The notes under the pieces: generated by a model
Databases searched by the model: none
Seen by the model: the letters and a program-made list of their open reading frames with translations, nothing else
Told to the model about the DNA's origin: nothing
Program-made: the position numbers and the translations under genes
Part shown: positions 3,811 through 60,872 of the stretch, in pieces
How the letters are laid out: each line of letters opens with the position of its first letter
How positions within the stretch are numbered: the stretch's first letter is position 1
Assembly (NCBI GenBank): GCA_030386875.1
Contig: CM059563.1
Location: forward strand, 51,215,602 to 51,279,601
Reading direction: 5' to 3'
Source: Morinoia aosen
Taxonomy: Eukaryota; Arthropoda; Malacostraca; Amphipoda; Talitridae
Length of the DNA stretch: 64,000 bases

Positions 3811-6800
3811 CATCTCCTCCACCACCTGCACTAACCACCTCACTTCGACCACTTGCAGTAACCACCTCACTTCCACCACCTGTAGTAACCACCTCACCTC
3901 CACCACCTGCAGAAACCACCTCACCTCCACCACCTGCAGAAACCACCTCACCTCCACCACCTGCAGTAACCACCTCACCTCCACCACCTGCAGTAACCAC
4001 CTCACTTCCACCTGTAGTAACCACCTCCCCTCCACCACCTGCAGAAACCACCTCCCCTCCACCACCTGCAGAAACCACCTCACTTCCACCACCTGCAGAA
4101 ACCACCTCACTTCCACCACCTGCAGAAACCACCTCACTTCCACCACCTGTAGTAACCACCTCACCTCCACCACCTGCAGTAACCACCTCACCTCCACCAC
4201 CTGCAGTAACCACCTCACCTCCACCACCTGCAGTAACCACCTCACCTCCACCACCTGCAGTAACCACCTCACCTCCACCACCTGCAAAAACCACCTCACC
4301 TCCACCACCTGCAGTAACCACCTCACCTCCACCACCTGCAGTAACCACCTCACCTCCACCACCTGCAGTAACCACCTCACCTCCACCACCTACAGAAACC
4401 ACCTCACCTCCACCACCTGTAGTAACCACCTCACCTCCACCACCTGTAGTAACCACCTCACCTCCACCACCTGCAGTAACCACCTCACCTCCACCACCTG
4501 CAGTAATCACCTCACCTCCACCACCTGCAGTAACCACCTCACCTCCACCCCTGCAGTAACCACCTCACCTCCACCACCTGCAGTAACCACCTCACCTCCA
4601 CCACCTGCAGTAACCACCTCACCTCCACCACCTGCAGTAACCACCTCACCTCCACCACCTGCAGTAACCACCTCACCTCCACCACCTGCAGTAACCACCT
4701 CACCTCCACCACCTTCAGTAACCACCTCACCTCCACCACCTAACCTCCATCACCTAACCTCCACCACCTAACCTCCACCACCTGCACTAACCACCTCCAC
4801 CACCTGCACTAACCACCTCCACCACCTGCACTAACCACCTCCACCACCTGCACTAACCACCTCCACCACCTGCACTAACCACCTCCACCACCTGCACTAA
4901 CCACCTCCACCACCTGCACTAACCACCTCCACCACCTGCACTAACCACCTCACCTCCATCACCTGCACTAACCACCTCACCTCCACAACGTGCAGTAACC
5001 ACCTCACCTCCACCACCTGCAGTAACCATTTCACCTCCACCACCTGCAGTAACCACCTCACCTCTACCACCTGCAGTAACCACCTCACCTCCACCACCTG
5101 TAGTAACCACCTCACCTCCACCACCTGCAGTAACCACCTCACCTCCACCACCTGCAGTAATCACCTCACCTCCACCACCTGCAGTAACCACCTCACCTCC
5201 ACCCCTGCAGTAACCACCTCACCTCCACCACCTGCAGTAACCACCTCACCTCCACCACCTGCAGTAACCACCTCACCTCCACCACCTGCAGTAACCACCT
5301 CACCTCCACCACCTGCAGTAACCACCTCACCTCCACCACCTGCAGTAACCACCTCACCTCCACCACCTTCAGTAACCACCTCACCTCCACCACCTAACCT
5401 CCATCACCTAACCTCCACCACCTAACCTCCACCACCTGCACTAACCACCTCCACCACCTGCACTAACCACCTCCACCACCTGCACTAACCACCTCCACCA
5501 CCTGCACTAACCACCTCCACCACCTGCACTAACCACCTCCACCACCTGCACTAACCACCTCCACCACCTGCACTAACCACCTCACCTCCATCACCTGCAC
5601 TAACCACCTCACCTCCACAACGTGCAGTAACCACCTCACCTCCACCACCTGCAGTAACCATTTCACCTCCACCACCTGCAGTAACCACCTCACCTCTACC
5701 ACCTGCAGTAACCACCTCACCTCCACCACCTGCAGTAACCACCTCACCTCCACCACCTGCAGTAACCACCTCACCTCCAACACCTGCAGTAACCACCTCA
5801 CCTCCAACACCTGCAGTAACCACCTCACCTCCATCACCTGTAGTAACCACCTCACCTCCACCACCTGCAGTAACTACCTCACCTCCACCACCTGTAGTAA
5901 CCACCTCACCTCCACCACCTGTAGTAACCACCTCACCTCCACCACCTGCAGTAACCACCTCACCCCCACCACCTGCAGTAACCACCTCACCCCCACCACC
6001 TGCAGTAACCACCTCACCTCCACCACCTGTAGTAACCACCTCACCTGTAGTAACCACCTCACCTCCCCCACCTGCAGTAACCACCTCACCTCCACCACCT
6101 GCAGTAAACACCTCACCTCCACCACCTGTAGTAACCACCTCACCTCCATCACCTGTAGTTACCACCTCACCTCCACCACCTGCAGTAACCACCTCACTTC
6201 CACCACCTGCAGTAACCACCTCACCTCCACCACCTGCAGTAACCACCTCACCTGCAGTAACCACCTCACCTCCACCACCTGCAGTAACCACCTCACCTGC
6301 AGTAACCACCTCACCTCCACCACCTGCAGTAACCACCTCACCTCCACCACCTGCAGTAACCTCCACCACCTAACCTCCACCACCTGCACTAACCACCTCC
6401 ACCACCTGCACTAACCACCTCCACCACCTGCACTAACCACCTCACCTCCATCACCTGCAGTAACCACCTCACCTCCACCACCTGCAGTAACCACCTCACC
6501 TCCACCACCTGCAGTAACCACCTCACCTCCACCACCTGCAGTAACCACCTCACCTCCACCACCTGCATTAACCACCTCACCTCCACCACCTGTGGTAACC
6601 ACCTCACCTCCACCACCTGCAGTAACCACCTCACCTCCACCACCTGCAGTAACCACCTCACCTCCACCACCTGCAGTAACCACCTCACCTCCACCACCTG
6701 CAGTAACCACCTCTCCTCCACCACCTGCAGTAACCACCTCACCTCCACCACCTAACCTCCACCACCTAACCTCCACCACCTGCACTAACCACCTCCACCA

Positions 6801-9800
6801 CCTGCACTAACCACCTCCACCACCTGCACTAACCACCTCCACAACCTGCACTAACCACCTCTCCATCACCTGCACTAACCACCTCACCTCCACCACCTGC
6901 AGTAACCACCTCACCTCCACCACCTGCAGTAACCACCTCACCTCCACCACCTGCAGTAACCACCTCACCTCCAACACCTGCAGTAACCACCTCACCTCCA
7001 TCACCTGTAGTAACCACCTCACCTCCACGACCTGTAGTAACCACCTCACCTCCACCACCTGCAGTAACCACCTCACCTCCACCACCTGCAGTAACCACCT
7101 CACCTCCACCACCTGCAGTAACCACCTCACCTCCACCACCTTCAGTAACCACCTCACCTCCACCACCTAACCTCCATCACCTAACCTCCACCACCTGCAC
7201 TAACCACCTCCACCACCTGCACTAACCACCTCCACCACCTGCACTAACCACCTCCACCACCTGCATTAACCACCTCCACCACCTGCACTAACCACCTCCA
7301 CCACCTGCACTAACCACCTCACCTCCACCACCCGCACTAACCACCTCCACCACCTGCCGTAACCACCTCACCTCCACCACCTGCAGTAACCACCTCACCT
7401 CCACCACCTGCAGTAACCACCTCATCTCCACCACCTGCAGTAACCACCTCACCTCCACCACCTGCAGTAATCACCTCACCTCCACCACCTGCAGTAACCA
7501 CCTCACCTCCACCACCTGCAGTAACCACCTCACCTCCAACACCTGCAGTAACCACCTCACCTCCATCACCTGTAGTAACCACCTCACCTCCACCACCTGT
7601 AGTAACCACCTCACCTCCACCACCTGCAGTAACCACCTCACCTCCACCACCTGCAGTAACCACCTCACCTCCACCACCTGCAGTAACCACCTCACCTCCA
7701 CCACCTGCAGTAACCACCTCACCTCCACCACCTGCAGTAACCACCTCACCTCCACCACCTGCAGTAACCACCTCACCTCCACCACCTGCAGTAACCACCT
7801 CACCTCCACCACCTTCAGTAACCACCTCACCTCCACCACCTAACCTCCATCACCTAACCTCCACCACCTAACCTCCACCACCTGCACTAACCACCTCCAC
7901 CACCTGCACTAACCACCTCCACCACCTGCACTAACCACCTCACCTCCATCACCTGCACTAACCACCTCACCTCCACCACCTGCAGTAACCACCTCACCTC
8001 CACCACCTGCAGTAACCACCTCACCTCCACCACCTGCAGTAACCACCTCACCTCCAACACCTGCAGTAACCACCTCACCTCCATCACCTGTAGTAACCAC
8101 CTCACCTCCACCACCTGTAGTAACCACCTCACCTCCACCACCTGCAGTAACCACCTCACCTCCACCACCTGCAGTAACCACCTCACCTCCACCACCTGCA
8201 GTAACCACCTCACCTCCACCACCTGCAGTAACCACCTCACCTCCACCACCTGCAGTAACCACCTCACCTCCACCACCTGCAGTAACCACCTCACCTCCAC
8301 CACCTTCAGTAACCACCTCACCTCCACCACCTAACCTCCATCACCTAACCTCCACCACCTGCACTAACCACCTCCACCACCTGCACTAACCACCTCCACC
8401 ACCTGCACTAACCACCTCCACCACCTGCATTAACCACCTCCACCACCTGCACTAACCACCTCCACCACCTGCACTAACCACCTCACCTCCACCACCCGCA
8501 CTAACCACCTCCACCACCTGTCGTAACCACCTCACCTCCACCACCTGCAGTAACCACCTCACCTCCACCACCTGCAGTAATCACCAAAACCTCCACCACC
8601 TGCAGTAACCACCTCACCTCCAACACCTGCAGTAACCACCTCACCTCCAACACCTGCAGTAACCACCTCACCTCCATCACCTGTAGTAACCACCTCACCT
8701 CCACCACCTGTAGTAACCACCTCACCTCCACCACCTGCAGTAACCACCTTACCTCCACCACCTGTAGTAACCACCTCACCTCCACCACCTGCAGTAACCA
8801 CCTCACCTCCACCACCTGCAGTAACCACCTCACCTCCATCACCTGCAGTAACCACCTCACCTCCACCACCTGCAGTAACCACCTCACCTCCACCACCTGC
8901 AGTAACCACCTCACCTCCACCACCTGCAGTAACCACCTCACCTCCACCACCTTCAGTAACCACCTCACCTCCACCACCTAACCTCCATCACCTAACCTCC
9001 ATCACCTAACCTCCATCACCTAACCTCCACCACCTAACCTCCACCACCTAACCTCCACCACCTGCACTAACCACCTCCACCACCTGCACTAACCACCTCC
9101 ACCACCTGCATTAACCACCTCCACCACCTGCACTAACCACCTCCACCACCTGCACTAACCACCTCACCTCCACCACCTGCAGTAACCACCTCACCTCCAC
9201 CACGTGCAGTAACCACCTCACCTCCACCACCTGCAGTAACCATTTCACCTCCACCACCTGCAGTAACCACCTCACCTCCACCACCTGCAGTAACCACCTC
9301 ACCTCCACCACCTGCAGTAACCACCTCACCTCCACCACCTGCAGTAACCACCTCACCTCCACCACCTGCAGTAACCACCTCACCTCCAACACCTGCAGTA
9401 ACCACCTCACCTCCAACACCTGCAGTAACCACCTCACCTCCATCACCTGTAGTAACCACCTCACCTCCACCACCTGCAGTAACTACCTCACCTCCACCAC
9501 CTGTAGTAACCACCTCACCTCCACCACCTGTAGTAACCACCTCACCTCCACCACCTGCAGTAACCACCTCACCTCCACCACCTGCAGTAACCACCTCACC
9601 TCCACCACCTGTAGTAACCACCTCACCTGTAGTAACCACCTCACCTCCCCCACCTGCAGTAACCACCTCACCTCCACCACCTGCAGTAACCACCTCACCT
9701 CCACCACCTGTAGTAACCACCTCACCTCCATCACCTGTAGTAACCACCTCACCTCCACCACCTGCAGTAACCACCTCACTTCCACCACCTGCAGTAACCA

Positions 9801-10578
9801 CCTCACCTCCACCACCTGCAGTAACCACCTCACCTCCACCACCTGCAGTAACCACCTCACCTCCACCACCTGCAGTAACCACCTCACCACCACCTGCAGT
9901 AACCTCCACCACCTAACCTCCACCACCTGCACTAACCACCTCCACCACCTGCACTAACCACCTCACCTCCATCACCTGCAGTAACCACCTCACCCCCATC
10001 ACCTGTAGTAACCACCTCACCTCCACCACCTGTAGTAACCACCTCACCTCCACCACCTGCAGTAACCACCTCACCTCCACCACCTGCAGTAACCACCTCA
10101 CCTCCACCACCTGCAGTAACCACCTCACCTCCACCACCTGCAGTAACCACCTCACCTCCACCACCTGCAGTAACCACCTCACCTCCACCACCTGCAGTAA
10201 CCACCTCACCTCCACCACCTGCAGTAACCACCTCACCTCCATCACCTGTAGTAACCACCTCACCTCCATCACCTGTAGTAACCACCTCACCTCCACCACC
10301 CGCAGTAACCACCTCACCTCCACCACCTGCAGTAACCACCTCACCTCCACCACCTGCAGTAACCACCTCACCTCCACCACCTGCAGTAACCACCTCACCT
10401 CCACCACCTGCAGTAAACACCTAACCTCCACCACCTGCAGTAATCACCTAACCTCCACCACCTGCACTAACCACCTCACCTCCACCACCTGCAGTAACCA
10501 CCTCACCTCCACCACTGCAGTAACCACCTCACCTCCACCACCTGCCTCCACCACCTGCACTAACCACCTGCCTCCACC
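3811..10578 (+). repeat. 27-bp/22-bp minisatellite, ~250 copies, intronic
   Basis: The main unit is 27 bp, containing CTGCAGTAACCACCTCACCT followed by CCACCAC. A 22-bp variant lacks one CACCT and reads GCACTAACC instead of GCAGTAACC. Blocks of 22-bp units and ACCTAACCTCCATC connectors recur, giving higher-order structure. The + strand is almost free of G except in CAG, while the - strand has GG every few bases. Long open frames on both strands (Thr/Ser/Pro/Asn-rich on +, Gly/Val/Glu- or Trp/Leu/Gln/Val-rich on -) follow from the stop-poor unit and are not genes. The array touches the splice acceptor at 10580. Confidence 0.97.
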
Positions 10579-10580
10579 AG
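10559..10580 (+). promoter_or_regulatory. Predicted branch point and 3' splice site
   Basis: ACTAAC (10559-10564) matches a branch-point consensus and lies 17 nt before CACCAG, which ends at 10580. The sequence between is C-rich and made of the last minisatellite units. Composition changes at once to GC-rich codon-structured DNA after the AG. Confidence 0.5.
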
Positions 10581-11802
10581 GGCCCCGGTGTGCTGCTGCT
10601 GCTGCCGCTCAGCTGGTGCTTCGCCTCGCCCCCGCCCCCCCGCATGGCACCCCTACCCGCCCCTCTCTCTGGGGGCGAAGGTGTGTCCCAGCTGCTGCCT
10701 CTGGCCCAGCTGCCCAGCCCACAGTCCCAGCCCCCCAGCAGTCAGCCCTACCAGTCCCAGCCACCTAGCAGTCAGCCCAACGAGTCCCAGCCCCCAAGCA
10801 GCCAGCCCTACGAGTCCCAGCCACCTAGCAGCCAGCCCTACCAGTTCCAGCCACCTAGCAGCCAGCCCTACCAGTTCCAGCCACCCAGCAGCCAGCTCTA
10901 CGACTCCCAGCAACCCAGCAGCCAGCCCTACCAGTTCCAGCCACCCAGCAGCCAGCCCTACGACTCCCAGCCACCCAGCAGCCAGCCCTACGACTCCCAG
11001 CCACCCAGCAGCCAGCCCTATGAGTCCCAGCCACCCAGCGTCCAGTCCTACGAGTCCCAGCCACCCAGCAGCCAGCCCTACGAGTCCCAGCCACCCAGCA
11101 GCCAGCCCTACGAGTCCCAGCCACCCAGCAGCCAGCCCTACGAGTCCCAGCCACCCAGCAGCCAGCCCTACGAGTCCCAGCCACCCAGCAGCCAGCCCTA
11201 CGAGTCTCAGTCACCCAGCAGCCAGCCCTACGAGTCCCAGCCACCCAGCAGCCAGCCCTACGAGTCCCAGCCCACAGTGCCAGAAGAAAAGGATAATATT
11301 CAGACCAAATCCCAGCACAGCATCTCCCCTTCTGACGAATATAGAATCCTCAACTCCCCCGGCTCCGAATTGAGGAATGAAGCGTCCTCTGAACTTCCTG
11401 AGTGGGGATGGCCTTTGGGGAACGAGGAAGAACCTCCTGCCAGCAGCAGGGGCTCCCTAAGCCCCTTCGAGGCCGAGGATCTGAGAGGCGGAGTGTCGGT
11501 CGAGGTCCTGCAATCCAATCAGGATCACGAGCACCGGTCCTCTGATCCTGCGGAGAGCGATCCTTTCCAGCTCTACTCCGAGGATGATGTGACTTGTTGG
11601 GACGATTATTTTTGTGAGGGGGATTTGCCTCCCCCGCCGCAGCCCCCCAAGTTCTTGCTCCCCCCTCCTCCGCTGCCCCCGTTCCTGCCCGGCTTGGCGC
11701 ACTTGGCCCGCTCCGAGCACCGGCCTGACGAGGAGGCGTGCGGGCTGTGCCACTGGGCTCTCTATGGCAACGTCTCGTCCACGTTGTTGGGCCCTCCCGA
11801 TG
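10581..11802 (+). CDS. Internal exon of a Pro/Gln/Ser/Tyr-repeat protein, probably secreted
   Basis: I do not recognise this gene. The frame (codons in phase with GTG at 10590) is open for about 405 codons, much longer and far more GC-rich than anything nearby. It begins with a hydrophobic core VLLLLPLSWCFA followed by SPPPP, which resembles a signal peptide h-region and cleavage site; the initiator Met would then lie in an upstream exon. An alternative is the in-frame ATG at 10644. Next come 18 copies of the decapeptide SQPPSSQPYE (10728-11270), then an acidic region (EDDVTCWDDYFCEGD), a Pro-rich linker, and a Cys pair in ACGLCHWALYGN. The exon ends GAT-G followed by GTGAGT, a consensus donor giving a phase 1 intron. 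An in-frame TAG inside that donor (11808-11810) would end the protein if the intron is not removed. Repeat-rich secreted structural, cuticular or chorion-like proteins are possible; function is unknown. Confidence 0.6.
10728..11270 (+). repeat. Coding 30-bp minisatellite, 18 units
   Basis: The unit CAGCCACCCAGCAGCCAGCC is followed by CTACGAGTCC. Every unit is exactly 30 bp, so the frame is kept. Changes between units are mostly synonymous or swap the last residues (YQF, YD, YE, NE). The last seven units are almost identical at DNA level, indicating recent expansion or conversion toward the 3' side. Confidence 0.95.
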
Positions 11803-11808
11803 GTGAGT
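11803..11808 (+). promoter_or_regulatory. Predicted 5' splice donor GTGAGT
   Basis: A perfect GTGAGT follows codon GAT plus one base. GC content and codon-like structure fall away immediately downstream, as expected at an exon-intron boundary. The same bases also supply an in-frame TAG at 11808-11810. Confidence 0.55.
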
Positions 11809-12388: not shown

Positions 12389-13448
12389 AACTCACTTTTT
12401 CTCTACACCTACCAACTCTTCCGATGTAATTGCTTGAATAAAAAACCTGAAAAATAAATCGAGTAAATTACAAACGCTTTCGACCAAAGCTCTTGAAATT
12501 ATTCCTCATATTGTAGCCCCTCTCATATCCAATATTATTAACCAGACTCTCTTCCTAGGCACTTTCTCGAACTCCCTGAAAGCTGCTAGAGTAACCCCTA
12601 TTTTTGAAAATGGGGAAAAATCCTGCCCAAACAATTATAAATCTATCTCCGTGCTACCAATTATTAGCAAAGTATTCGAGAAAATTGTGTATAAAAAGTG
12701 TATTTTTATTTTGAGCAAAAATCAGTTCTATATGATAAACAATTGGGTTTTCGTTCTAAAAAAATACACAACACAGGCTATATTAAATTATTTACAATAC
12801 CTTTATTCTGAAATAGATGAAGGAAAGCTTGTTCTCTCTGTATTTCTTAACTTTCGAAAAGTATTCGATTGTGTGGACAATAACAAATTATTCTCGAAAC
12901 TCCACTGTTATGGCATTCGAGGAGTTGCTCATGATTGGTTCAGATCATACTTAACAAGTCGGAAGCCATACATGTCATCGACGATGCAAAATCTGTGAGT
13001 TCCCCAAGGATCTGTCATTGGGCCCCTCCTATTTATAATTTGTATCAATGATATTGTTAAATCTACATTATTTCTCAAATTCATACCCATTGCCGATGAC
13101 AGCACGCTATCTACGGTCCGTCCAAACCAAAATCCCGCTCTAATTGCTAAAAGTATAAACAACAAACTCCAAAAGGTTTCATTGTGGCTTAAAGCTAATA
13201 AAATAAGCCTTAATATCGATAAAAGAAAATATATTACATTCTCATACAGGAAAAAAATATCTCTTCCACGCATTAAAATTGGCGAAGGGGAAATCGAAGA
13301 AACCAACTCATGTAGGTTTCTGGTCATCATAATAGATAAACTTCTGACTTTCAGAGTGCACATCGCTTAAATTAGTACTAAGTTATCAAACTCCGTCGGA
13401 ATTTTTCACAAAGTGAAAAATTTCCTGCATGAAGAACCTTTGCAAATA
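12389..13448 (+). pseudogene. Jockey-type non-LTR retrotransposon reverse transcriptase fragment
   Basis: A single reading frame encodes a recognisable non-LTR reverse transcriptase broken by stops at 12435 (TGA), 12996 (TGA) and 13368 (TAA), with a probable frameshift near 12388. Visible landmarks: KNLKNKSS before the RT core, ARVTPIF, the block YKSISVLPIISKVFEKIV, the first catalytic motif degenerated to FLNFRKVFDCVD, VPQGSVIGPLLF with the usual GPLLF, and the catalytic box reading IADDS where YADDT or FADD is normal. The end, SVGIFHKVKNF, matches the thumb region. The endonuclease domain and 5' part are missing. The fragment is AT-rich, decayed and inactive, and it merges in the same frame into the 12-bp satellite. 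Clade assignment (jockey-like rather than RTE or CR1) is by motif resemblance only. Confidence 0.88.
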
Positions 13449-14432
13449 CTTTGTGACTTTGTTTGTGACTTTGTTTGTGACTTTGTTTGTGACTTTGTTT
13501 GTGACTTTGTTTGTGACTTTGTTTGTGACTTTGTTTGTGACTTTGTTTGTGACTTTGTTTTTGACTTTGTTTGTGATTTTGTTTGTGATTTTGTTTGTGA
13601 TTTTGTTTGTGATTTTGTTTGTGATTTTGTTTGTGATTTTGTTTGTGACTTCGTTTGTGACTTCGTTTGTGACTTTGTTTGTGACTTTGTTTGTGACTTT
13701 GTTTGTGACTTTGTTCGTGACTTTGTTTGTGACTTTGTTTGTGACTTTGTTTGTGACTTTGTTTGTGACTTTGTTTGTGACTTTGTTTGTGACTTTGTTT
13801 GTGACTTTGTTTGTGACTTTGTTTGTGACTTTGTTTGTGACTTTGTTTGTGACTTTGTTTGTGATTTTGTTTGTGATTTTGTTTGTGATTTTGTTTGTGA
13901 TTTTGTTTGTGACTTTGTTTGTGACTTTGTTTGTGACTTTGTTTGTGACTTTGTTTGTGATTTTGTTTGTGACTTTGTTTGTGACTTTGTTTGTGATTTT
14001 GTTTGTGATTTTGTTTGTGATTTTGTTTGTGATTTTGTTTGTGACTTTGTTTGTGACTTTGTTTGTGATTTTGTTTGTGACTTTGTTTGTGATTTTGTTT
14101 GTGACTTTGTTTGTGACTTTGTTTGTGACTTTGTTTGTGACTTTGTTTGTGACTTTGTTTGTGACTTTGTTTGTGACTTTGTTCGTGACTTTGTTCGTGA
14201 CTTTGTTCGTGACTTTGTTTGTGACTTTGTTTGTGACTTTGTTTGGGACTTTGTTTGGTACTTTGCTTGTGACTTTGTTTGTGGCTTTGCTTGTGACTTT
14301 GCTTGTGACTTTGTTTGTGACTTTGTTTGTGACTTTGTTTGTGACTTTGTTTGTGACTTTGTTTGTGACTTTGTTTGGGACTTTGTTTGGGACTTTGTTT
14401 GGGACTTTGTTTGGGACTTTGTTTGGGACTTA
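13446..14432. repeat. 12-bp satellite TGTGACTTTGTT, ~82 copies
   Basis: The unit TGTGACTTTGTT is repeated without a single indel for almost 1 kb; only substitutions occur (GATTTT, TTCGTG, TTTGGG variants, the last enriched at the 3' end). It is stop-free in several frames on both strands (CDFV on +, KSQT on -), giving long spurious open frames. Confidence 0.97.
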
Positions 14433-27074: not shown

Positions 27075-28929
27075 ATTGTTTTGAGGCATCGCTTAAACCG
27101 CACAGTCTGACGCCAGCTCATTTCTGCCTAGATTTAAGCGCCACAGTCCTACTTTCGAATGAAGCATTTCTAAAGTGGGAAAGAAGAAAGAACAAAATTT
27201 ATGTGAAGGTAAACTCATGCAACTACAAAATGAACTGAAAAACTTAACTTCTTATTTCCCTTGACTTTACTCACTGAACAGTAAATCTTATTCCAAAGAC
27301 ATATATCTTTTTGGTGGGATAGAACACTTATGACATTTTATTTTTATAAGCCAGAAAGAAATTATGATTCATTGACATTCAAAAAATTTCAGAAGCGTGT
27401 GAAATGCATGAAAGTAATGGCTGGAATCTTCTAAAGAGCAAATAGGTATTCTACTAATTCAATGAATTCTTTTCGAGAGTTTCCTGCAGCTTTAGTAAGA
27501 CCTGAAAGCCTTTAGACGAAACGAGGAGTTTTATCTTTGTGCTATGGGTTCGAAAATGTTAAAGCGAAACAAATGCTGTGATAAAATTACGCATCTTTTT
27601 CTCATTAACTCATTAAAATTCGTGAAACTCGGGTCCGTGCACCGCGTGCCATCCATCTGAGTGGCTGGGGTAGCCGAGGCGTGTTTGCGACGCCGGCTTC
27701 CTCGTACACATAAACTTCACCGAGTTGGCCCGTCTCTTGCATCCGCAAAGAAGATAATTTATTCATTGTAATGGCAGATAGCCAGGCCTCGGGCGGACTT
27801 CCTCGTATGAGTGTTATGCTTTGCCGCAAAAAATGGAAACGAACCCCTCTAGGAAAAAATATGCTTCTCTTATGAAGAAAGAGCGGCCGCCGCCGGGTTG
27901 TTCTTTTAGGAAGATTTCATGATTTCACGCACGCTTTTCAGGCGCTGTGATAGAGCGAAAATCTTTTTGGTGCGAGGGAACTACAGATTTGCTCGCCTTT
28001 TTGGGGTTGTTTGATGCGGTGTGAGGTCGTGAGCGCTTGAAAATTTGCACTGCATTTATCGTAAGCGAAGATCTGAATTTCTTGACGCTTCCTCGATCCG
28101 GAAGAATTTATCCCAGAAAAGTTCCCGGCAATTCTACACTTGTAAAATTATCCTCGACACTTCGCAAGCTTCGCTGCAATTTTGGCGCACTCGCATCAAA
28201 TTGCCAACACCCCAGACATCGTAAAGATAAAACAAAAGCACTCTTGGTGCAATGTTTGCACTGCCGATGCCGGGCACTAACAAGCAATCCCAGTGCGGGA
28301 AGCCAGTAATTCTGCAGTAATTATCAACGCAAATTTTGCGCTGCAAATAAGCGAGCGCTGCGCTTACAGCAATGTTTTATTATTGTGATTTTTTCGACTC
28401 TTGGATGCTCAAAAGAACGTTCATTTTGAATTTAAATTGTATTTGCTTTGTTGGAGTGAAAATTGAGAAGTTTATTCAGCAATACTGTTTGCATGTTCCT
28501 GGGCACTTCAACGAAATAATGCATTAATTTGTAAGGAGTTCGTTTAATTATAGATCATTTTTAAATGTTGCAGTATGTTTTACCACAATTTGTCTATTAT
28601 TCTGCACTTCATAGCTACTCTGTGAAGGGAAGTAAAGGTTCGATGATGTTTTATTATAAGAGTGCAGATAACGCGAATACAATTTTTATTTTGTGTCAGA
28701 AATTTATAATGTCAGCGTCAAATTCCGAGTTTATTAGTAATGTAATACATGAACTATAATTTCATTTAATCTGTGAGGAAGAGGAGTGCTGTTTTCAGTC
28801 ATGTTCATTATAAAATGTAAAAAAAAGAACGCATGCAATTCGATGATTATGAGTCCCTCAGTTATATAAAAACAATCGAGCGACAATGCGGAATGTACGG
28901 ACGTCATGCGCCGGCGGCTCCTGATCAGC
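27075..28929. other. Unique DNA, no gene supported
   Basis: A GC-richer patch at 27610-27830 is open on the - strand for 74 codons without recognisable motifs. No RNA genes seen. Confidence 0.45.
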
Positions 28930-29598
28930 CTTCACAACGTCACCAGGTTATAAGGTCACCGTCACCTTCACAACGTGACCGGATTATAACGTCACCGACA
29001 CCTTTATAACGTCACCGGATTATAACGTCACCGTCACCTTTATAACGTCACCGCATTATAACGTCACCGTCACCTTCACAACGTGACCGGATTATAACGT
29101 CACCGTCACCTTCACAACGTCACCGGATTATAACGTCACCGTCACCTTCACAACGTGACCGGATTATAACGTCACCGTCACCTTTATAACATCACCGCAT
29201 TATAACGTCACCGTCACCTTCACAACGTCACCGGATTATAACGTCACCGTCACCTTTATAACGTCACCGGATTATAACGTCATCGTCACCTTTATAACGT
29301 CACCGGATTATAACGTCACCGTCACCTTCACAACGTCACCGGATTATAACGTCACCGTCACCTTTATAACGTCACCGGATTATAACGTCACCGTCACCTT
29401 TATAACTTCACCGGATTATAACGTCACCGTCACCTTTATAACGTCACCGGATTATAACGTCACCGTCACCTTTATTACGTCACCGGATTATAACGTCACC
29501 GTCACCTTTATAACGTTACCGGATTATAACGTCACCGGATTATAACGTCACCTTCATAACATTACCGGATTATAACGTCACCGTCACCTTTATAACGC
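28930..29598. repeat. 36-bp satellite, ~18 copies
   Basis: The unit GGATTATAACGTCACCGTCA continues CCTTTATAACGTCACC. Each unit has two AACGTCACC cores separated by an 18-bp half unit, with a TTTATAAC/TTCACAAC alternation. Occasional units are truncated to a half (near 29525). Confidence 0.95.
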
Positions 29599-29855
29599 CA
29601 CCCACATATAAGAATGAATTTTCAAGAAATTTAAATCCTCGTTGTAGTATAACCGACTCCAAAAGTTCTTTTTTTGACTTGGGTGTGCAACGTATTTGTT
29701 TTTCTCACTGAAATCCTCATGTTAGAGTGTTTTTTAGAAAATGAAAATTTAACTTTCTATTTAATCTTACCTTTTTATACATGCAATTGAAGCATTGTGT
29801 CCATCAGAAAAAGTAACCAAAATAACAAGTCACCAGGCTTTTGTTGCAGGCTTTG
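29599..29855. other. Unique spacer between two satellites
   Basis: About 250 bp of AT-rich DNA with no feature. Confidence 0.5.
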
Positions 29856-31660
29856 CTAAATGACATGAATTGTAAGAAAATATGGCGGCTTACATCGTGT
29901 TCCTTGCAACACAGCCCAAATGACGTGAATTGTAAGAAAATATGGCGGCTTACATCGTGTTCCTTGCAACACAGCCCAAATGACGTGAATTGTAAGAAAA
30001 TAAGGCGGCTTACATCGTGTTCCTTGCAACACAGCCCAAATGACGTGAATTGTAAGAAAATATGGCGGCTTACATCGTGTTCCTTGCAACACAGCCCAAA
30101 TGACGTGAATTGTAAGAAAATAAGGCGGCTTACATCGTGTTCCTTGCAACACAGCCCAAATGACGTGAATTGCAAGAAAATAAGGCGGCTTACATCGTGT
30201 TCCTTGCAATACAGCCCAAATGACGTGAATTGTAAGAAAATAAGGCGGCTTACATCGTGTTCCCTGCAACACAGCCCAAATGACGTGAATTGTAAGAAAA
30301 TAAGGCGGCTTACGTCGTGTTCCTTGCAACACAGCCCAAATGACGTGAATTGTAAGAAAATAAGGCGACTTACATCGTGTTCCTTGCAACACAGCCCAAA
30401 TGACATGAATTGTAAGAAAATAAGGCGACTTACATCGTGTTCCTTGCAACACAGCCCAAATGACGTGAATTGTAAGAAAATAAGGCGACTTACATCGTGT
30501 TCCTTGCAACACAGCCCAAATGACGTGAATTGTAAGAAAATATGGCGGCTTACATCGTATTCCTTGCAACACAGCCCAAATGACGTGAATTGTAAGAAAA
30601 TAAGGCGGCTTACATCGTGTTCCTTGCAACACAGCCCAAATGACGTGAATTGTAAGAAAATAAGGCGGCTTACATCGTATTCCTTGCAACACAGCCCAAA
30701 TGACGTGAATTGTAAGAAAATAAGGCGGCTTACATCGTGTTCCCTGCAACACAGCCCAAATGACGTGAATTGTAAGAAAATAAGGCGGCTTACATCGTGT
30801 TCCTTGCAACACAGCCCAAATGACGTGAATTGTAAGAAAATATGGCGACTTACATCGTGTTCCTTGCAACACAGCCCAAATGACGTGAATTGTAAGAAAA
30901 TAAGGCGGCTTACATCGTATTCCTTGCAACACAGCCCAAATGACGTGAATTGTAAGAAAATAAGGCGGCTTACATCGTGTTCCCTGCAACACAGCCCAAA
31001 TGACGTGAATTGTAAGAAAATAAGGCGGCTTACATCGTGTTCCTTGCAACACAGCCCAAATGACGTGAATTGTAAGAACATAAGGCGGCTTACATCGTGT
31101 TCCTTGCAACACAGCCCAAATGACATGAATTGTAAGAAAATATGGCGGCTTACATCGTGTTCCTTGCAACACAGCCCAAATGACGTGAATTGTAAGAACA
31201 TAAGGCGGCTTACATCGTGTTCCTTGCAACACAGCCCAAATGACGTGAATTGTAAGAACATAAGGCGGCTTACATCGTGTTCCCTGCAACACAGCCCAAA
31301 TGACGTGAATTGTAAGAAAATAAGGCGGCTTACATCGTGTTCCTTGCAACACAGCCCAAATGACGTGAATTGTAAGAACATAAGGCGGCTTACATCGTGT
31401 TCCCTGCAACACAGCCCAAATGACGTGAATTGTAAGAAAATAAGGCGGCTTACATCGTGTTCCTTGCAACACAGCCCAAATGACGTGAATTGTAAGAACA
31501 TAAGGCGGCTTACATCGTGTTCCTTGCAATACAGCCCAAATGACGTGAATTGTAAGAACATAAGGCGGCTTACATCGTGTTCCCTGCAACACAGCCCAAA
31601 TGACGTGAATTGTAAGAAAATAAGGCGGCTTACATCGTGTTCCTTGCAACACAGCCCAAA
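29856..31660. repeat. 60-bp satellite, 30 copies without indels
   Basis: The unit begins TGACGTGAATTGTAAGAAAA, continues with taaggcggcttacatcg and ends in TTGCAACACAGCCCAAA. Thirty units run in perfect 60-bp register with about 10 recurrent single-base variants (TATGG/TAAGG, CCCTG/CCTTG, GAACA/GAAAA, GCGACT/GCGGCT). A 6-bp dyad TGTAAG..CTTACA sits in each unit. The length is a multiple of three and the unit is stop-free in one + and two - frames, so open frames of about 600 codons appear on both strands; none has flanking gene signals. Confidence 0.97.
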
Positions 31661-54591: not shown

Positions 54592-55095
54592 GTTGGGGCG
54601 GGGCTGTGGAGGGGCTGTTGCGGGGCTGTGGAGGGGCTGTGGCGGGGCTGTGGCGGGGCTGTGGCGGGGCTGTGGCGGGGCTGTGGCGGGGCTGTGGCGG
54701 GGCTGTGGCGGGGCTGTGGCGGGGCTGTGGCGGGGCTGTGGCGGGGCTGTGGCGGGGCTGTGGCGGGGCTGTGGCGGGCCTGTGGCGGGCCTGTGGCGGG
54801 GGCTGTGGCGGGGGCTGTGGCGGGGGCTGTGGCGGGGCTGCGGCGGGGCTGCGGCGGGGCTGTGGCGGGGCTGTGGCGGGGCTGTGGCGGGGCTGTGGCG
54901 GGGCTGTGGCGGGGGCTGTGGCGGGGGCTGTGGCGGGGGCTGTGGCGGGGGCTGTGGCGGGGCTGTGGCGGGGCTGTGGCGGGGCTGTGGCGGGGCTGTG
55001 GCGGGGCTGTGGCGGGGCTGTGGCGGGGCTGTGGCGGGGCTGTGGCGGGGCTGTGGCAGGGGCTGTGGCAGGGGCTGTGGCGGGGGCTGTGGTGG
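54592..55095. repeat. 11/12-bp G-rich satellite GGGGCTGTGGC, ~45 copies
   Basis: Most units are 11 bp; clusters of 12-bp units have five G. GGGG runs recur every 11-12 bp on the + strand for 0.5 kb with almost no A. The array is stop-free in all three + frames and also on - (Ala/Gly/Trp/Arg-rich and Pro/Gln/His-rich frames), which I regard as non-coding. Confidence 0.96.
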
Positions 55096-57302: not shown

Positions 57303-60300
57303 TACTGACGTCTTTAGTGAAATGCTGTCGTCTTTAGTGGAGTGCTTACATCTTTAGTGAAGTGCTGTCGTCTTTAGTGGAGTGCTGTCGTCTTTAGTGG
57401 AGTGCTGTCGTCTTTAGTGGAGTGCTGTCGTCTTTAGTGGAGTGCTGACGTCTTTAGTGGAGTGCTGACGTCTTTAGTGAAGTGCTGTCGTCTTTAGTGG
57501 AGTGCTGTCGTCTTTAGTGGAGTGCTGTCGTCTTTAGTGGAGTGCTGTCGTCTTTAGTGGAGTGCTGTCGTCTTTAGTGGAGTGCTGTCGTCTTTAGTGG
57601 AGTGCTGTCGTCTTTAGTGGAGTGCTGTCGTCTTTAGTGGAGTGCTGACGTCTTTAGTTGAGTGCTGTCGTCTTTAGTTGAGTGCTGTCGTCTTTAGTGG
57701 AGTGCTGACGTCTTTAGTGGAGTGCTGACGTCTTTAGTGGAGTGCTGACGTCTATAGTGGAGTGCTGTCGTCTTTAGTGGAGTGCTGTCGTCTTTAGTGG
57801 AGTGCTGACGTCTTTAGTGGAGTGCTGTCGTCTTTAGTGGAGTGCTGTCGTCTTTAGTGGAGTGCTGTCGTCTTTAGTGGAGTGCTGTCGTCTTTAGTGG
57901 AGTGCTGTCGTCTTTAGTGGAGTGCTGACGTCTTTAGTGGAGTGCTGACGTCTTTAGTGGAGTGCTGACGTCTTTAGTGGAGTGCTGACGTCTTTAGTGG
58001 AGTGCTGACGTCTTTAGTGGAGTGCTGACGTCTTTAGTGGAGTGCTGACGTCTTTAGTGGAGTGCTGACGTCTTTAGTGGAGTGCTGACGTCTTTAGTGG
58101 AGTGCTGACGTCTTTAGTGGAGTGCTGTCGTCTTTAGTGGAGTGCTGACGTCTTTAGTGGAGTGCTGTCGTCTTTAGTGGAGTGCTGACGTCTTTAGTGG
58201 AGTGCTGACGTCTTTAGTGGAGTGCTGACGTCTTTAGTGAAGTACGGTCGTCTTTAGTGGAGTGCTGACGTCTTTAGTGACGTGCTGACGTCTTTAGTGA
58301 AGTGCTGTCGCCTTTAGTGACGTGCTGACAACTTTAGTGGAGTGCTGACGTCTTTAGTGAAGTGATGTCGTCTTTAGTGAAGTGCTGTCGCCTTTAGTGA
58401 CGTGCTGACAACTTTAGTGGAGTGCTGACGTCTTTAGTGAAGTGATGTCGCCTTTAGTGACGTGCTGACGTCTTTAGTGGAGTGCTGACGTCTTTAGTGA
58501 AGTGATGTCGCCTTTAGTGACGTGCTGACGTCTTTAGTGACGTGCTGACAACTTTAGTGGAGTGCTGACGTCTTTAGTGACGTGCTGACGTCTTTAGTGA
58601 CGTGCTGACGTCTTTAGTGACGTGCTGACAACTTTAGCGGAGTGCTGACGTCTTTAGTGAAGTGATGTCGTCTTTAGTGAAGTGCTGTCGCCTTTAGTGA
58701 CGTGCTGACAACTTTAGTGGAGTGCTGACGTCTTTAGTGAAGTGATGTCGCCTTTAGTGAAGTGATGTCGTCTTTAGTGACGTGCTGACGTCTTTAGTGA
58801 CGTGCTGACGTCTTTAGTGAAGTGATGTCGCCTTTAGTGACGTGCTGACGTCTTTAGTGAAGTGATGTCGTCTTTAGTGACGTGCTGACAACTTTAGTGA
58901 CGTGCTGACGTCTTTAGTGAAGTGATGTCGTCTTTAGTGACGTGCTGACGTCTTTAGTGACGTGCTGACAACTTTAGTGACGTGCTGACGTCTTTAGTGA
59001 AGTGATGTCGTCTTTAGTGACGTGCTGACGTCTTTAGTGAAGTGATGTCGCCTTTAGTGACGTGCTGACGTCTTTAGTGAAGTGATGTCGTCTTTAGTGA
59101 CGTGCTGACAACTTTAGTGACGTGCTGACGTCTTTAGTGAAGTGATGTCGTCTTTAGTGACGTGCTGACAATTTTAGTGGAGTGCTGACGTCTTTAGTGA
59201 AGTGCTGTCGCCTTTAGTGACGTGCTGACAACTTTAGTGACGTGCTGACGTCTTTAGTGAAGTGATGTCGTCTTTAGTGAAGTGCTGACAACTTTAGTGA
59301 CGTGCTGACGTCTTTAGTGAAGTGATGTCGTCTTTAGTGACGTGCTGACGTCTTTAGTGACGTGCTGACGTCTTTAGTGACGTGCTGACGTCTTTAGTGA
59401 AGTGATGTCGTCTTTAGTGACGTGCTGACGTCTTTAGTGACGTGCTGACGTCTTTAGTGAAGTGATGTCGCCTTTAGTGACGTGCTGACGTCTTTAGTGA
59501 AGTGATGTCGTCTTTAGTGACGTGCTGACGTCTTTAGTGAAGTGATGTCGTCTTTAGTGACGTGCTGACGTCTTTAGTGAAGTGATGTCGTCTTTAGTGA
59601 CGTGCTGACGTCTTTAGTGAAGTGATGTCGCCTTTAGTGACGTGCTGACGTCTTTAGTGACGTGCTGACGTCTTTAGTGACGTGCTGACGTCTTTAGTGA
59701 AGTGATGTCGCCTTTAGTGACGTGCTGACGTCTTTAGTGAAGTGATGTCGCCTTTAGTGACGTGCTGACGTCTTTAGTGACGTGCTGACGTCTTTAGTGA
59801 AGTGATGTCGCCTTTAGTGACGTGCTGACGTTTTTAGTGAAGTGATGTCGTCTTTAGTGACGTGCTGACGTCTTTAGTGAAGTGATGTCGTCTTTAGTGA
59901 CGTGCTGACGTCTTTAGTGAAGTGATGTCGTCTTTAGTGACGTGCTGACGTCTTTAGTGAAGTGATGTCGCCTTTAGTGACGTGCTGACAATTTTAGTGG
60001 AGTGCTGACGTCTTTAGTGAAGTGCTGTCGCCTTTAGTGACGTGCTGACAACTTTAGTGAAGTGATGTCGTCTTTAGTGAAGTGCTGACAACTTTAGTGG
60101 AGTGCTGACGTCTTTAGTGAAGTGCTGACAACTTTAGTGAAGTGCTGTCGCCTTTAGTGACGTGCTGACAACTTTAGTGAAGTGCTGTCGCCTTTAGTGA
60201 CGTGCTGACAACTTTAGTGGAGTGCTGACGTCTTTAGTGAAGTGCTGTCGCCTTTAGTGACGTGCTGACAACTTTAGTGGAGTGCTGACGTCTTTAGTGG

Positions 60301-60872
60301 AGTGCTGACGTCTTTGGGGACGTGCTGACGTCTTTGGGGACGTGCTGACGTCTTTAGTGACGTGCTGACAACTTTAGTGGAGTGATGTCGTCTTTAGTGG
60401 AGTGCTGACGTCTTTAGTGGAGTGCTGACGTCTTTAGTGGAGTGATGACGTCTTTAGTGGAGTGCTGAAGTCTTTAGTGGAGTACTGACGTCTTTAGTGG
60501 AGTACTGACGTCTTTAGTGGAGTGCTGTCGTCTTTGGTGGAGTGCTGACATCTTTAGTGTAGTACTGACATCTTTAGTGTAGTACTGACGTCTTTAGTGG
60601 AGTGCTGACGTCTTTAGTGGAGTGCTGAAGTCTTTAGTGGAGTACTGACGTCTTTAGTGGAGTGCTGACGTCTTTAGTGGAGTGCTGACGTCTTTAGTGG
60701 AGTGCTGACGTCTTTAGTGGAGTGCTGACGTCTTTAGTGGAGTGCTGAAGTCTTTAGTGGAGTACTGACGTCTTTAGTGGAGTGCTGACGTCTTTAGTGA
60801 AGTGCTGTCGTCTTTAGTGAGTGCTGTCGTCTTTAGTGGAGTGCTGACGTCTTTAGTGGAGTGCTGACGTCT
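57303..60872. repeat. 20-bp satellite, ~178 copies, mosaic of unit types
   Basis: Main types: AGTGCTGTCGTCTTTAGTGG, AGTGCTGACGTCTTTAGTGG, CGTGCTGACGTCTTTAGTGA, AGTGATGTCGCCTTTAGTGA and CGTGCTGACAACTTTAGTGG. The 20-bp register is kept for ~3.5 kb; one 19-bp unit occurs near 60820. The first and last parts are homogeneous, while 58250-60300 is a mixture arranged in higher-order groups. A TAG stop in the unit blocks long frames. Confidence 0.97.

Follow-up and report, generated by a model that had tools for sequence, protein, structure and literature searches.

A minisatellite supplying several donor sites was reportedly described in 1995, in the gene IFI6/6-16. In intron 18 of human ABCA7, a variable number tandem repeat (VNTR) starts with the donor GT of exon 18 and measures 298 to 10,678 bp; one unit is retained through a cryptic donor irrespective of length, and VNTR length goes with lower expression and more skipping of exon 19 (PMC5954066). 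In amphioxus, 'mirages' are described from the Adh3 and globin genes, in which intron-exon boundaries are repeated as minisatellites, the boundary in BflGb6 being an acceptor (PMC3087553). Here we describe a locus of the amphipod Morinoia aosen at which a minisatellite with a 27-bp unit runs to the last base before a predicted acceptor. It lies in a stretch of 64,000 nucleotides, called the window below (GenBank assembly GCA_030386875.1, contig CM059563.1, positions 51,215,602 to 51,279,601, forward strand).

We give an even chance to the reading that this hypervariable minisatellite extends through the 3' end of a phase-0 intron as far as the base preceding the acceptor, and that the acceptor-like sites in its units (decoys) would be poison acceptors that are mostly masked and tolerated. 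Array, exon, decoys, stop codons and variability are read from the sequence and masking from predicted folds, while splicing use is deduced. The features concerned are the following.

3816-10580, + strand: minisatellite with a 27-bp unit (CCTCCACCACCTGCAGTAACCACCTCA) and 22-bp (CTAAC, AG-less) and 14-bp (CCTCCACCACCTAA) variants in recurring cassettes (unit analysis)
4719-4993, + strand: longest AG-free run of the array, including a block of 22-bp CTAAC units; followed by a decoy YAG ending at 4995
5088-5719, + strand: 26-unit (632-bp) block that a second copy of the region lacks (unit comparison)
10521-10523, + strand: TAA in the frame of the exon; a frame-keeping acceptor upstream would read this stop
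10532-10580, + strand: terminal degenerate units with 13-bp sub-repeats
10560-10564, + strand: CTAAC, predicted branch point; its branch A, 10563, lies 17 nt ahead of G10580
10578-10580, + strand: CAG, putative acceptor; sole AG of the array in a CACCAG context
10581-11802, + strand: coding exon, phase 0 start and phase 1 end, with a signal-peptide-like start (GPGVLLLLPLSWCFAS) followed by Pro/Gln/Ser-rich protein
10705-11272, + strand: 30-bp coding repeat, in frame (SSQPYESQPP); the second copy has two more units (60 bp)
11803-11808, + strand: donor GTGAGT; GTAAGC at the same place and phase in a paralog

The array and its terminal acceptor

Tandem Repeats Finder (TRF) placed the array at 3816-10545 (period 27, 255.5 copies), and its repeats continue past 10545 up to 10580; with tandem units in the range of about 10-100 bp it is a minisatellite or VNTR. 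Cutting 3811-10580 against the consensus yielded 261 pieces, of which 192 measure 27 bp and 41 measure 22 bp, ordered in cassettes in which runs of AG-bearing 27-bp units are followed by 14-bp units ending in TAA and then by 22-bp CTAAC units. The common 27-bp unit (94 exact copies) has a CAG, but its GTAAC does not fit yUnAy; the common 22-bp unit CCTCCACCACCTGCACTAACCA (32 exact copies) has CTAAC and lacks AG. The original prediction had ascribed TAAC, a C-rich tract and CAG to each unit, a description that was not confirmed: CTAAC and AG mostly reside in different unit types. All 190 AG dinucleotides in 3811-10580 are YAGs (157 CAG, 33 TAG), and the same interval holds 256 TAAC and 75 CTAAC. 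Besides the longest AG-free run, shorter ones (82-255) with CTAAC precede the decoys at 5627, 6460, 6902, 7985, 9182 and 9981.

At its 3' side the array ends with CAG 10578-10580, after which a frame remains open up to the donor at 11803. This frame opens directly after the TAA at 10521-10523, no ATG stands ahead of its hydrophobic, signal-peptide-like start, and the tract preceding the exon is C-rich. The gene product is probably a secreted protein. A paralogous exon is located 222 kb away (L016:1192-1741; weak tblastn match, 37% identity over 65 residues, E 0.01). It opens as CAG/G with a Leu-rich start without preceding ATG, starts in phase 0, ends in phase 1 at a GTAAGC donor, and has the pattern C.....C / PPPP / C..C in common with the exon studied here; the two were considered homologous on account of this shared layout more than of the E-value. 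As neither has an in-frame ATG before its start, each would seem to depend on splicing from an exon further upstream. The only AG lying between the TAA in frame and the exon ends at 10580 (no AG other than the used one in the 58 bases 10521-10578), so that no other acceptor of the array can serve this open reading frame (ORF). The putative acceptor CAG 10578-10580 and the exon 10581-11802 are well supported at the level of sequence, and the claim of a real acceptor at the array end was supported by the CAG/G, identical phase and similar signal-peptide-like start of the paralog. Use of this terminal acceptor by the spliceosome is what we infer.

The final units had also been expected to supply both the predicted branch point and the AG. 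This is correct for the terminal CTAAC and only loosely so for the AG, the context of which is CACCAG. When the last 40 intron bases are aligned to the unit without gaps, the best position (28/40 matches) places the used AG on the unit's CCACCA and not on its CAG. The decoys are accordingly no copies of the used AG, whose CACCAG does not fall in the register of the unit's CTGCAG. Together with the paralog intron, which ends in a plain tract (TTTGATGAACGGTTCATTCCACAG) without such an array, this leaves expansion from the intron's own 3' end unsupported in the form originally proposed. Growth near the intron end is possible and compatible with the letters of the last 49 bases, in which 13-bp sub-repeats (CCTCCACCACCTG) match half of the 27-bp unit.

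The paralog has a minisatellite of its own with a 27-bp period and a different unit (L019:257-448), starting 15 bases after its exon end (L016:1741 = L019:241). Each paralog thus has an array close against this exon, one before it and the other behind it.

Decoy acceptors and the stop codons behind them

The announced 'some 200' decoys came to 189 when counted. Among the 190 YAGs, the used one included, 11 have CTAAC in range without an intervening AG, 161 another TAAC, 12 another yTnAy and 6 none of these; the distance from TAAC to AG is 24 nt in 165 cases. The AG contexts are CTGCAG (144), CTGTAG (33), variants thereof (12) and the single CACCAG of the used site. Scores were computed with a simple splice-site matrix whose frequencies were not fitted to the species, and which serves for ranking only: the array median was 4.49, the used site scored 4.57 and the paralog acceptor 1.32. 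Decoys thus exist as sequence, as claimed, and score like the used site; the low value of the paralog acceptor marks the matrix as a poor guide.

How readily such a unit arises by chance was assessed with letter shuffles of one 27-bp unit. TAAC plus YAG at splicing distance was obtained in 259 of 20,000 shuffles; under stricter rules, yTnAy was passed by 793 of 20,000 and CTAAC by 145, and the real unit fails both. Acceptor-like geometry on one strand was seen in 3 of 17 array units (the 27-bp unit included), or 3 of 34 readings, the 17 having been hand-picked from 47 TRF rows. The splice-site mimicry should accordingly be counted as a single, moderately unlikely event and not as 200.

Judged from the reading frame of the exon, the intron is in phase 0. 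In this phase a stop codon follows directly after 181 of the 189 decoys, and none of the 189 keeps the exon ORF. Elsewhere in the window, 1,437 YAGs were counted and 11.9% of them have a stop next to them on the 3' side; among the decoys of the second copy it is 183 of 192. Alternative acceptor choice, which had been put forward as a source of isoforms, is therefore unlikely to be productive, and we regard it as an evenly balanced proposition that the array is a poison-acceptor array and no source of protein isoforms. As a whole, the earlier observation was confirmed for the array and its roughly 200 decoys but not for uniform unit content, and the earlier interpretation gained support for an array ahead of an acceptor and for decoys as sequence, though not for the origin or the isoforms.

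Predicted masking of the decoys by RNA folding

Most decoy AGs end the palindrome CUGCAG, which allows adjacent units to pair as 6-bp hairpins; two consensus units fold at -6.5 kcal/mol. In partition-function folds the mean unpaired probability was 0.069 (93% paired) for 187 of the 190 AGs, all of them decoys; the last three AGs fell outside the positions counted. For comparison, the mean was 0.80 over all array positions and 0.98 for the A's of 250 of the 256 TAAC, and 383 AGs in 25 random 360-base segments from the rest of the window gave 0.33. In 10 array segments (77 AGs) the A of AG was unpaired with a probability of 0.09 and the G with 0.05, against 0.47 and 0.19 in 80 dinucleotide shuffles of these segments (629 AGs); mean fold energies were -29.6 and -17.9 kcal/mol, respectively. 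The second copy behaved similarly (0.066 for 185 of 193 AGs).

The A of the used AG was predicted unpaired at 0.84-0.98 across five contexts, the branch A at 0.60-0.95, and the A of the paralog acceptor at 0.81. Of the ten decoys that have CTAAC in range, eight were folded, and in all eight the A was unpaired at 0.00-0.02. Masking of splice signals by RNA structure has precedent (reviewed in PMC11802352). A YAG within a six-base palindrome occurred in 289 of 20,000 shuffled 27-bp units.

A second copy of the region and variability of the array

About 30 kb or more of this region is present twice in the contig (C8 of the 1.99-Gb genome, 51.2 and 53.66 Mb), 2.43-2.44 Mb apart, and where the sequence is single-copy the identity is about 99% or higher. 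The match reaches either end of the 30-kb stretch compared and is met again about 220 kb further on; judged from sequence, they could be either a large recent duplication or a second, unpurged haplotype in the assembly. Measured against the copy of the array region at a distance of 2.44 Mb, the nearest array flanks are free of mismatches over 411 and 851 bp 5' of the array and over 530 and 1,638 bp 3' of it. Farther out, single-copy flanks differ at 30 positions over 5,939 bp on the upstream side, where one more row was unanchored and dropped, and at 5 over 4,463 bp downstream.

The array itself differs. The interval 3816-10579 measures 6,764 bp here and 6,875 bp in the second copy, a copy-number difference as in a VNTR, to which an assembly error in the array may contribute. 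A unit-by-unit comparison found 18 differing blocks, among them the 26-unit block found only here and a 33-unit block found only in the second copy, and a base-by-base alignment gave 113 mismatches and 33 gaps. The first 19 and the last 10 units are the same in both copies. Other repeats differ by 60 bp in frame (the 30-bp coding repeat), 240 bp (a 12-bp array) and 17 bp (a 17-bp array). A 26-bp array at 919 has equal length in both copies and differs by one base, whereas the 27-bp array is strongly changed.

Other features of the window and further searches

The window is very rich in minisatellites (47 TRF rows, units of 11-60 bp), for instance at 919-2379, 28929-31660, 54597-55092 and 57305-60872. 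A degenerate array at 141-352 likewise has a 27-bp period, and its consensus also contains CTGCAG. A reverse transcriptase remnant (Pfam RVT_1) occupies 12438-13370 as two adjoining open stretches in one frame; the piece 12999-13370 is above the curated cut-off and 12438-12998 below it, and the 12-bp array follows at 13450. RNA families at the gathering threshold and tRNAs were absent from the window. Five stretches from contig ends, one of them unreadable, showed no telomere array.

No Pfam family was matched by the exon at E up to 1 or by its paralog at E up to 5. A comparison of the two paralogous regions for other exons produced none convincing among the best 25 of 140 matches (E up to 1). 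Solved structures were tried as a guide to gene identity, and the three matches, R. bromii Amy16 (E 0.01, in the repeat region) and two others (E 0.68 and 0.72), were all disregarded.

A model of acceptor choice and its alternatives

In the reading that we prefer, with poison acceptors mostly masked and tolerated, the spliceosome would normally branch at A 10563 in the terminal CTAAC and take the AG that comes next downstream, a site that combines a fitting branch point, an AG-free run and a predicted exposed A. Such a choice agrees with the scanning model and an AG exclusion zone (PMC1431707). Decoys would be restrained by poor branch points (GTAAC), by a tract that is C-rich and not U-rich, and by pairing of their AGs: neighbouring units would pair as 6-bp hairpins that bury the decoy AGs and leave open the A's of TAAC and the A of the used AG. 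Leakage into a decoy would yield a transcript stopping at its first codon, at a cost in output and without giving isoforms. The array would be tolerated as a nearly neutral load, and output may fall with the number of unmasked units. An extended form, that the roughly 190 near-identical, stop-linked sites silence each other by palindromic pairing between neighbours, so that splicing fidelity and output would depend on the hairpins (possibly on temperature), on copy number and on the mix of AG-bearing and AG-less units, is improbable in our estimate.

Several points count against masked poison acceptors. The upstream exon was not found, and placing the array in an intron rests on the missing ATG and on the paralog (tblastn E 0.01). 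On the simple matrix, which ranks the paralog acceptor below the array median, a score above that of the used site was obtained by 23 of the 189 decoys. For the G of the used AG the folds predict pairing (0.07-0.09 unpaired), as they do for the Gs of the decoys and for that of the paralog acceptor (0.08), so that masking separates used site from decoy at the A only. Two CTGTAG units (33 AGs) pair weakly or not at all, and the same applies to CTTCAG units (6). Six-base palindromes are found in 8 of 16 array units of the window that were tested (the 27-bp unit included), one other array having CTGCAG, and the palindrome may be due to chance. A mutagenesis preprint on another intron states that overall structural similarity poorly predicts use of cryptic 3' sites, with a correlation for one mutant class (PMC13228592). 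Were the intron in phase 1 or 2, no decoy would have a stop as its first full codon; and the AG/TAA junction, the YAG and the palindrome all derive from a single unit sequence and amount to one coincidence instead of 189.

One alternative is an ordinary intronic minisatellite without effect, whose AGs are ignored because the tract is C-rich and A-interrupted and good branch points are few, so that masking is irrelevant. The 47 TRF rows of the window, the acceptor-like geometry in 3 of 17 units and the palindromes in 8 of 16 favour this explanation, as do the CTAAC in range for just 11 of 190 YAGs, the minisatellite 15 bases past the end of the paralogous exon and a report that amphioxus arrays with splice signals do not disturb regular splicing (PMC3087553). 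It has to contend, however, with the ten decoys for which a CTAAC is in range (seven of these follow AG-free runs of 82-277), from which competition would be expected, and with the rarity of a YAG in a six-base palindrome among unit shuffles; we regard it as a genuine possibility, yet one that falls short of probable. Alternatively, array length and the mix of AG-less CTAAC cassettes and AG-bearing ones could act as a regulatory rheostat that sets the fraction of transcripts lost to poison acceptors, and alleles would differ in output. Large array differences between identical immediate flanks and the immediate stops behind nearly all decoys would suit such a rheostat. The ABCA7 report points both ways: in the human VNTR, whose unit contains a donor, greater length is associated with reduced expression and altered splicing, but use of the cryptic donor inside it is independent of length (PMC5954066). 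A rheostat is unlikely in our view.

The composition of the array RNA, C-rich and G-poor, raises another explanation, by analogy: PCBP/hnRNP K-type proteins may bind it and either promote or block use of the terminal acceptor. In mammals, alphaCPs reportedly enhance acceptors that have C-rich tracts (PMC4797308); we judge this explanation, too, to be unlikely here. A coding repeat, with the array encoding a mucin-like PPPPAVTTS domain, can hardly be credited. The 27-bp unit is open in one frame and ORFs of up to 326 aa exist within the array, but the 22- and 26-bp units break the frame, no ORF spans the array, and TAA intervenes between array and exon ORF. Substitutions in the PPPPAVTTS frame number 105/100/45 at codon positions 1/2/3 (summed from the unit table), fewest at the third. 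On frame and substitution pattern a coding origin of the array was rejected; a mucin-like repeat in one open frame was not found.

Significance and comparison with known systems

With about 190 near-identical upstream AGs, the locus is an extreme natural test of 3' splice site choice, for which the scanning model, branch-point quality, AG exclusion and RNA masking make different predictions, and one assembly offers two naturally different arrays with identical immediate flanks. The immediate stops after nearly all decoys and the predicted pairing of their AGs are two properties beyond those originally proposed. An intron-confined, short-unit array with acceptor-mimicking units that stop at once was not noticed among the papers listed by literature searches that covered few subscription papers.

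As in the reported 1995 donor minisatellite, repeats supply splice sites here; there donors are said to be provided to the transcript, while here acceptor-like sites are predicted to be mostly unused. The amphioxus mirages share with the present array minisatellite-like repeats at an intron-exon boundary, many with AG/GT signals, and length differences between haplotypes (PMC3087553). The present repeats, too, carry splice signals. Mirage units, however, span the boundary and include exon sequence, whereas the units described here stop at the acceptor, and the exon bases after 10580 (GGCCCCGG) are absent from the unit. They also differ in scale, with 3-6 units of 150-160 bp in BflGb6 and units of 10-72 bp in Adh3, versus about 255 of 27 bp here (PMC3087553).

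The array resembles an acceptor-side counterpart of the disease-linked ABCA7 VNTR. Both have an array abutting a splice site (25-bp C-rich unit and arrays to 10.7 kb in ABCA7), a splice signal within the unit, a reading frame that breaks when a copy is used, and variable length; the amphipod array ends at the predicted used site. In ABCA7 it is the donor side that is concerned, the first two bases of the array are the used GT, and one donor within the array is used. At the amphipod locus, by contrast, the acceptor side is concerned, the used site is no in-register copy of the unit (CACCAG versus CTGCAG/CTGTAG), nearly all decoys lead to immediate stops, and the AG mostly lies in a self-pairing palindrome.

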